This document shows positions 17,851 through 18,756 of a DNA stretch of 64,000 bases, piece by piece. Position 1 is the first letter of the stretch, and each line of letters opens with the position of its first letter. The translations under genes were made by a program, and so were the position numbers. The notes under the pieces were generated by a model. That model saw only the letters and a list, made by a program, of their open reading frames with translations, ran no database searches and was not told the origin of the DNA. Source of the stretch: Arcobacter sp. (GTDB lineage Bacteria > Campylobacterota > Campylobacteria > Campylobacterales > Arcobacteraceae). The DNA lies in NCBI GenBank assembly GCA_002869565.1, contig PKUJ01000010.1:182883-246882 (forward strand), in the 5' to 3' direction.

Positions 17851-18037
17851 GCAACATCTTCAATGTCCTTACTGTAGACAAGCGATAACTATCCTTCTTG
17901 ATACAGGAATTGATGGTTATGCCTCTGTTATTGATGATTGTGAAGTATGCTGTAGACCTATAGATATAGATTATTATGTTGAAGAAGGAGAAGTCACTAC
18001 TTTTTCTTATAATTCAATTGAAGGAAATGAATTTTAA
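17843..18037 (+). CDS. CPXCG-motif cysteine-rich small protein
   Basis: A 64-residue protein with two paired-cysteine motifs, CPYC near the N-terminus and CEVCC about 30 residues later, the pattern of the CPXCG small zinc-ribbon family. The start at 17843 is chosen over an in-frame ATG at 17822 because AAAGGAAAAA lies just upstream and the shorter form begins MFEQHLQCPYC as in relatives. It overlaps the end of the MMPL gene by 8 bp, and its stop overlaps the next start by 1 bp. Function unknown. Confidence 0.72.
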   Translation: MFEQHLQCPYCRQAITILLDTGIDGYASVIDDCEVCCRPIDIDYYVEEGEVTTFSYNSIEGNEF

Positions 18038-18603
18038 TGAATATTGCAATATATTGTGGTTCATCATTTGGAAACGACCCGATTTTTGAATCCCATGCTA
18101 AAAATATGATTCAAGCCTTATATAAAAAAGATGCAACCATAGTTTATGGTGGTAGTAAAGCAGGGATTATGGGAACAATTTCCAAAGAAGCTATTTCTCT
18201 AAATATGAAAGTGTTAGGAGTCATTACTCATAAGTTAATAGATAAAGAAATCTTAAATCCAAATATAACAAAAATTTACACTGTAAGTAATATCCGTGAA
18301 CGAAAAGCTAAAATGGAAGAGCTATCAGATGCTTTTATTGGCTTTCCTGGCGGATTTGGGACAATAGAAGAACTAAGTGAAGTATTTACTTCTATACAAA
18401 TAGGAATACATAAAAAGCCTTGTGCACTGTACAATTTAAATGGATATTATGATAAACTCGTCGAATTTTTCCAATCTTGCGTAGATCAAGGATTTATAAA
18501 ACAATCCCATCTTGATGCAATTATTGTAAGTGATGATATAGAATATATTTACAACTCTTTTGTAAATTATAAGGCTCCTAAAAATAAATGGGAAATTTCT
18601 TGA
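18037..18603 (+). CDS. LOG-family protein (cytokinin riboside 5'-monophosphate phosphoribohydrolase-like)
   Basis: A 188-residue Rossmann-fold protein of the TIGR00730/LOG class. GGSKAGIMG lies near residue 47 and the family signature PGGFGTIEE near 106. Members hydrolyse nucleoside 5'-monophosphates to base and ribose 5-phosphate. A second LOG protein is encoded at 58053-58676; this one is the shorter, plant LOG-like type. It closes the mlaA operon. The physiological substrate in bacteria is uncertain. Confidence 0.82.
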   Translation: MNIAIYCGSSFGNDPIFESHAKNMIQALYKKDATIVYGGSKAGIMGTISKEAISLNMKVLGVITHKLIDKEILNPNITKIYTVSNIRERKAKMEELSDAFIGFPGGFGTIEELSEVFTSIQIGIHKKPCALYNLNGYYDKLVEFFQSCVDQGFIKQSHLDAIIVSDDIEYIYNSFVNYKAPKNKWEIS

Positions 18604-18655
18604 CATATTAATTTTTTATTAACCTTTTGTTTTTATATCATTAATTGTGTTCTAT

Positions 18656-18661
18656 TATAAT
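18656..18661 (+). promoter_or_regulatory. -10 box for candidate small RNA
   Basis: TATAAT at 18656-18661 in a T-rich context; transcription would start near 18668 and end at the hairpin 56 bp further on. There is no open reading frame between. Confidence 0.5.
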
Positions 18662-18667
18662 TATCTT

Positions 18668-18756
18668 ATCAAATAGGTAACCGCGAATTACTTATAGAAT
18701 TTTTGCGAATAAGTTCTCCTCGAAACAGAGCTCCTCTCCTGCTCTGTTTATTTTCT
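18668..18756 (+). ncRNA. Candidate trans-acting small RNA with CUCCU motifs
   Basis: A free-standing unit of about 89 nt in a 294-bp gap: -10 TATAAT upstream, an internal 6-bp stem (ACTTAT 18690-18695 with ATAAGT 18709-18714), a single-stranded TTCTCCTCG, and a terminator hairpin whose loop reads TCCTCTCCT. Two CTCCT blocks therefore lie unpaired, one before and one within the terminator loop. CTCCT is the complement of the ribosome-binding core AGGAG. Small RNAs of other bacteria use exposed C/U-rich loops in this way (for example Helicobacter RepG). It is not SRP RNA, tmRNA or 6S RNA by motif. The 5' end is inferred. Confidence 0.5.
18723..18756 (+). terminator. Intrinsic terminator with pyrimidine loop
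   Basis: Perfect 9-bp stem AAACAGAGC (18723-18731) with GCTCTGTTT (18741-18749), a 9-nt loop TCCTCTCCT, then ATTTTCT. It is the most GC-rich hairpin nearby and lies 120 bp past the LOG stop, so it more probably ends its own short transcript than the mlaA operon. Confidence 0.75.

Follow-up and report, generated by a model that had tools for sequence, protein, structure and literature searches.

Judged by comparison with related genomes, a short intergenic site in the 64,000-nucleotide stretch of Arcobacter sp. DNA analysed here (the window; contig PKUJ01000010.1, positions 182,883 to 246,882) is one copy of a real, conserved and previously uncatalogued multi-copy small-RNA family of Arcobacter-like bacteria. 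As a whole, the family is best explained, with somewhat more confidence than doubt, as a set of envelope-stress small RNAs (sRNAs) that would combine masking of ribosome sites by an anti-Shine-Dalgarno (anti-SD) stretch with a GCGAA-loop recognition module.

A predicted small-RNA gene in the window

A preliminary description of this site had proposed a small-RNA gene with a -10 box, no open reading frame, an internal stem and a terminator with a 9-nt loop, and these elements are borne out. The -10 box is a perfect TATAAT (18656-18661, + strand) placed 10 bp past the last half-site of the promoter box, a spacing conserved among copies, and no ORF of at least 50 aa crosses 18656-18756. The predicted RNA of about 85-90 nt (18667-18755, +), its start placed by the -10 box, has a folding energy of -20.2 kcal/mol, compared with an average of -11.6 kcal/mol for shuffled sequences (z = -3.25; 1 of 200 shuffles as good). 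In the minimum free energy (MFE) fold, hairpin 1 (18673-18695, +) has the loop CCGCGAA, with GCGAA at 18683-18687, and hairpin 2 (18696-18717, +) has the loop TTGCGAAT, with GCGAA at 18705-18709. The conserved anti-SD element TCTCCT (18715-18720, +) lies partly within the 3' arm of hairpin 2. It is followed by an intrinsic-terminator-like element (18723-18755, +), whose hairpin (18723-18749) carries the 9-nt loop TCCTCTCCT as described; its U-tract, TTTATTTTC, is weak, and a simple terminator scan therefore misses it. The segment TTCTCCTCG (18714-18722), which had been described as exposed, is so only in part: CCTCG is free, and TTCT is paired in the 3' arm of hairpin 2. Stems, promoter and terminator are all conserved in relatives, in agreement with the proposed small-RNA gene.

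Distribution and types of the family

A search at the DNA level gave matches in 15 of the 16 genus genomes, with many of the matches spanning both promoter and RNA. Set side by side, the relatives follow a common plan: promoter repeats, a GCGAA hairpin, a second GCGAA hairpin, the anti-SD stretch and a terminator. The pattern of TATAAT plus two GCGAA at set distances occurred in 16/16 genus genomes, with 1-5 matches each and few control matches. When a stricter pattern was applied to 104 genomes of the family Arcobacteraceae, it matched in 16/16 of the genus and 2/31 of a second genus, and in none of the 57 genomes of 18 other genera, with 0 control matches. Across 84,980 species, the same strict pattern picked out 111 stretches, which were then scored with a promoter-box matrix. 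True copies scored at least 23, apart from one with its box displaced by a single base, and the best unrelated stretch reached 5.9, leaving a clean gap. The contigs that carry true copies are labelled Halarcobacter, Arcobacter, Campylobacteraceae and Campylobacterales, with one metagenome-assembled genome (MAG) labelled only 'bacterium'; by these neighbours, the organism of the window would belong to the Arcobacteraceae, close to Halarcobacter. A repeated element, ATAATACCCCAAGAAAAAAGA, found on three contigs (L090, L094, L163) of one Campylobacterales MAG (JAMOOV), has two GCGAA as in the search pattern; it was rejected as a family member, the promoter box being missing.

We compared 40 distinct copies. 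In type A, to which the window copy belongs, hairpin 2 is followed by UCUCCU; the anti-SD stretch of type B is UUUGUUUCCUUGUGUG or a near variant; and type C, the mixed remainder, has UUCUCC or UCUCC. Five copies reside in this genome: that of the window, a pair on C20 separated by about 1 kb, and one each on C34 and C21, both of the latter with GUGAA in the first loop. Rfam 15 covariance models gave no hit in the window at gathering or lax cut-offs and scored far under the cut-offs on the paralogs (for example, RsaE at 31 against 79 bits), and a literature search returned no paper on a twin-GCGAA-loop RNA family. Intergenic regions of Arcobacter sp. L have been analysed by Stav 2019 (PMC6429828), who left motifs confined to a genus unnamed.

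The -10 box of the window copy lies 53 bp beyond the end of a LOG-family gene (possible lysine decarboxylase; 18037-18603). Such a gene adjoins several but not all of the type A orthologs. A cis-acting leader of the next gene was considered and rejected, because the RNA ends in a terminator of its own and the copies adjoin unrelated genes.

The anti-SD stretch and its predicted targets

All 40 copies contain an anti-SD stretch, of the UCUCC or UUUCCUU types, and in type B 10-12 nt within it are nearly invariant. Two such sites had been proposed for the window copy; of these, the internal UCUCCU recurs in every type A ortholog seen, the CUCCU of the terminator loop only in some relatives.

Start regions were searched for the complement of the type B anti-SD stretch, and those from about 1.26 Mb of this genome, including the window, and from 0.4 Mb of G013 were ranked by duplex energy. 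The porin start of the same genome ranked 19-24 of 1529 in G000, 8 in G007, 9 in G013 and 10 in G015, and 116, 201 and 1120 in G006, G005 and G016, respectively; outside G000 and G013 these ranks are approximate, because the background consists of the start regions of those two genomes. The porin start is thus within the top 1.6% in 4/7 genomes, which are related to each other. For the anti-SD stretch of the window copy, the porin is not a favoured target (rank 1114 of 1529). Target prediction had been suggested as a check on the idea that this RNA represses several mRNAs; no target class stood out in the ranking for the window copy, and that idea therefore stays conjectural.

Signal-peptide or outer-membrane genes were not enriched among the predicted targets in this genome. 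For type B in G013, signal-peptide genes were enriched (p = 2e-4), in part due to stronger Shine-Dalgarno sequences (p = 0.015), and the enrichment was not repeated under the outer-membrane definition. The type B target pattern CACAAGGAA-N-ATG had 91 matches against 59 in the reversed control, which is no clean signal; the matches include prs repeatedly, in seven genomes, as well as starts of OmpA-like, TonB-receptor, porin and MlaA-like genes. The prs start of this genome (L300:11915) and its orthologs in six other genus genomes read CACAAGGAAAATCTGATG or nearly so, complementary to the type B anti-SD stretch. An OmpA-like gene follows prs, and in G011 and G013 it has the same site.

Twin GCGAA hairpins and a porin leader with the same loop

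GCGAA, rarely GUGAA, occupies the loops of two hairpins that are common to the copies; the loop letters are fixed and the stems vary. Exchanging arms between copies weakened the pairing from -8.8 to -5.3 kcal/mol in hairpin 1 and from -5.4 to -3.2 kcal/mol in hairpin 2. Over all types, 0/1000 random reassignments were as good as the native arms, and within type A, where the stem of hairpin 2 is weaker, 15/1000 (hairpin 1) and 14/1000 (hairpin 2) were, counts that are not strict probabilities because the copies are related. The preliminary description, largely right otherwise, had suggested asking whether the terminator loop is the most conserved part. That place belongs instead to features it had missed, namely the four-half-site promoter box and the GCGAA of the two hairpin loops.

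At lepA of G013 (L313:2153, - strand) and at a TtcA-like gene of this genome (L384, about 19.0 kb), a promoter-like TATAAT is directly followed by CGCGAA and then by the ribosome site. These mRNAs may start with CGCGAA, and a hairpin is possible there in G013 lepA.

The same loop recurs in the leader of a porin gene (L378:12050-13249, - strand; L423, this genome, C16 at about 253.2 kb), where a long hairpin with the apex TTTTGCGAATTT stands about 60 nt before the start codon. Porin leader hairpins with a GCGAA loop were found in six genomes of the genus and in G016 of the second genus. Their stems covary in this set (-15.9 kcal/mol native vs -8.0 kcal/mol swapped; 1/5000), and the stem of G015, wholly different in sequence, still pairs. 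In G015 the porin adjoins an sRNA gene, and the single porin of the second genus for which such a leader was found belongs to G016, one of the two sRNA-bearing genomes there. Other genus genomes that do carry the RNA have a different porin leader or none of this kind. GCGAA hairpins are not a widespread leader element: in the 1.26 Mb of this genome covered, such leaders are rare, and that of the porin is the strongest GCGAA-loop leader of 684.

The loops of the RNAs and of the porin leader have the same sense and are not complementary, and UUCGC, the complement of GCGAA, was found at 0/1159 start regions of this genome and 3/370 of G013, which is no enrichment. Identical rather than complementary loops, together with the count of 0/1159, therefore argue for a common binder, most simply a protein.

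Such a binder would also accommodate a pure decoy. The CsrB and RsmZ decoys present multiple GGA loops that bind CsrA; by this logic the RNA would only titrate the GCGAA-loop binder from the porin leader and perhaps from other RNAs, and its pyrimidine stretch would be secondary or a processing site. Like these decoys, the family does repeat one and the same hairpin loop, which is found again close to the ribosome site in the leader of an mRNA, and the two loops per RNA, up to five RNAs per genome, a porin loop identical rather than complementary and the missing UUCGC sites all fit titration. However, a pure decoy needs no anti-SD stretch, and here one is kept in every copy and nearly unchanged throughout type B; GCGAA-loop leaders are also few in the sampled part of this genome. 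We therefore consider a pure decoy unlikely, and the family, with GCGAA instead of GGA, two loops only and an anti-SD stretch, falls outside the CsrB/RsmZ class.

Alternatively, the GCGAA loops might pair with UUCGC in target RNAs by kissing, which would make the RNA an ordinary antisense regulator with several seeds and the porin leader loop a target-side mimic or a chance likeness. Seeds are classically located in loops, and the rare GUGAA variant could still pair with UUCGC through G-U, but the lack of UUCGC enrichment at start regions and the same-sense loop of the porin leader make this quite unlikely.

A promoter box shared with putative envelope-stress genes

Upstream of the -10 box, half-sites ATTAAT (18607-18612), ATTAAC (18618-18623), GTTTTT (18629-18634) and ATTAAT (18640-18645) are spaced 11 bp apart on the + strand. 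The matrix score of this box (18607-18645) is 34.6, by far the best in the window, and the consensus of 25 aligned copies is RTTAAY-N5-RTTAAC-N5-RTT(A/T)NN-N5-RTTAAT-N10-TATAAT. In three genomes, the same architecture with at most 3 mismatches precedes degP/htrA, LTXXQ (CpxP/Spy-like) and eptA-like genes. The degP/htrA gene with the box is followed in this genome by a response regulator and a kinase, and in G009 and G013 a different regulator and kinase come after the LTXXQ genes with the box. As expected of a CpxR-type regulon, degP, a cpxP/spy-like gene and the regulator's own operon thus have the box in common, with up to 3 mismatches and in a weaker form at cpxP. The cpxP-like promoter of this genome (GTTAAT ATCTC GTTAAG ATAAG ATTTAT AAATG ATTAAA ATCCTCATGT CATACT) is taken as a weaker site because its matrix score is not above 6, and the RNA promoters have stronger boxes than either the cpxP-like or the degP promoter.

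We predict that the degP-, eptA- and cpxP-like genes and the sRNAs form a Cpx-like envelope-stress regulon and that envelope stress probably switches the sRNAs on. A Cpx-like response regulator of the OmpR family is the best candidate activator, the link between box and regulator being drawn from shared sites and autoregulation geometry only. Such a regulon would unite the RNAs with a protease, a periplasmic chaperone-like protein and a lipid A modifier, in a group little studied for regulation of this kind.

A CRP/FNR-type regulator such as NssR, which would place the RNA in a nitrosative-stress or antimicrobial-peptide response, is a very unlikely activator. The NssR site is TTAAC-N4-GTTAA, and adjacent half-sites of the box can be read as the similar TTAAC-N5-GTTA. 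The two readings also have htrA as a common target, since activation of htrA by NssR has been reported in Campylobacter jejuni (PMC13189099). Yet the box consists of four direct half-sites with strict 11-bp spacing, A or G alike as first base and 10 bp to the -10 box, which is the geometry of OmpR/PhoB/CiaR sites, and it is carried by two OmpR-class regulator-kinase operons.

The porins with the leader hairpin (L360-L363, L367, L370, L371) have upstream promoter repeats of their own, GCGATTAAAMTGCGATTTCATTTAA, with an 11-bp period, which are probably the site of another response regulator.

The terminator loop

The preliminary description had likened the RNA to RepG of Helicobacter pylori (PMC8295292), a small RNA from a related bacterial class, on the strength of the C/U-rich terminator loop of the window copy. 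RepG uses such a loop, which is conserved, to pair with a homopolymeric G-repeat of a target leader. CTCCT is found in this loop in the window, L007, L008, L009, L012 and the diverged L026; the other copies lack it, several orthologs having GATTTTTGAT or other unrelated sequences. Because the loop varies among orthologs, and likewise among paralogs, a RepG-type mechanism does not hold for the family, which differs from RepG in promoter and structure too; despite the matching loops of the window copy and some relatives, action through TCCTCTCCT is highly improbable.

Proposed mode of action and comparison with known systems

According to the explanation that we favour, a Cpx/Cia-like (OmpR-family) response regulator would activate the sRNA promoters, most likely under envelope stress. 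The induced RNA would expose its anti-SD stretch, UCUCCU in the window copy and UUUCCUUGUGUG in most paralogs, and pairing of this stretch with ribosome sites would lower translation; the best supported target of the paralogs is the porin mRNA. The two GCGAA-loop hairpins would serve as a module for recognition, most likely by an RNA-binding protein able to read the GCGAA-loop hairpin of the porin mRNA leader as well, and the small RNA would either bring this protein to the target or take it away.

The twin-loop module may point to an RNA-binding partner in bacteria that lack Hfq. Hfq (PF17209) had no match in four genomes, whereas the controls matched in 5/14 genomes as expected. For this Hfq-less lineage we tentatively suggest, as one possibility, that an RNA-binding protein recognises the GCGAA hairpins of both the porin leader and the sRNAs, serving as matchmaker or being titrated, so that stress would shut the porin down. 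For the question of how trans-acting small RNAs work in Hfq-less bacteria, the loop motif offers a direct handle in the form of whatever binds it; if the suggestion is true, this would be a new protein-guided small-RNA system.

CpxQ, MicA, RybB and OmrA/B of enterobacteria are Hfq-dependent. The family resembles them in its envelope-stress-type regulator and in porin repression at the ribosome site, which is predicted here, but it differs in its free-standing genes, its twin loops and the lack of any sequence relation, and the four genomes without an Hfq match set it apart from Hfq-dependent small RNAs.

By analogy, the family would work most like the streptococcal csRNAs (PMC3091779, PMC8186281) set in a Cpx-like regulon, with the twin GCGAA-loop module in addition. 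In both, one two-component regulator (predicted here) controls several related short RNAs of a genome, and the genes have direct repeats of 11-bp period ten bases from TATAAT, an anti-SD stretch between hairpins and a terminator. CiaR sites of streptococci read TTTAAG-N5-TTTAAG, ten bases from TATAAT (PMC3091779). In contrast to these two TTTAAG, the promoters described here have four RTTAAY half-sites and so lie outside the csRNA definition; they also belong to another phylum, and the RNAs have no sequence relation to csRNAs and carry two upstream hairpins with GCGAA loops. In csRNAs an unpaired region is complementary to both the Shine-Dalgarno sequence and the start codon; no conserved complement to AUG was noticed in the GCGAA-loop family, and the complement to the Shine-Dalgarno sequence is present in all of its copies.
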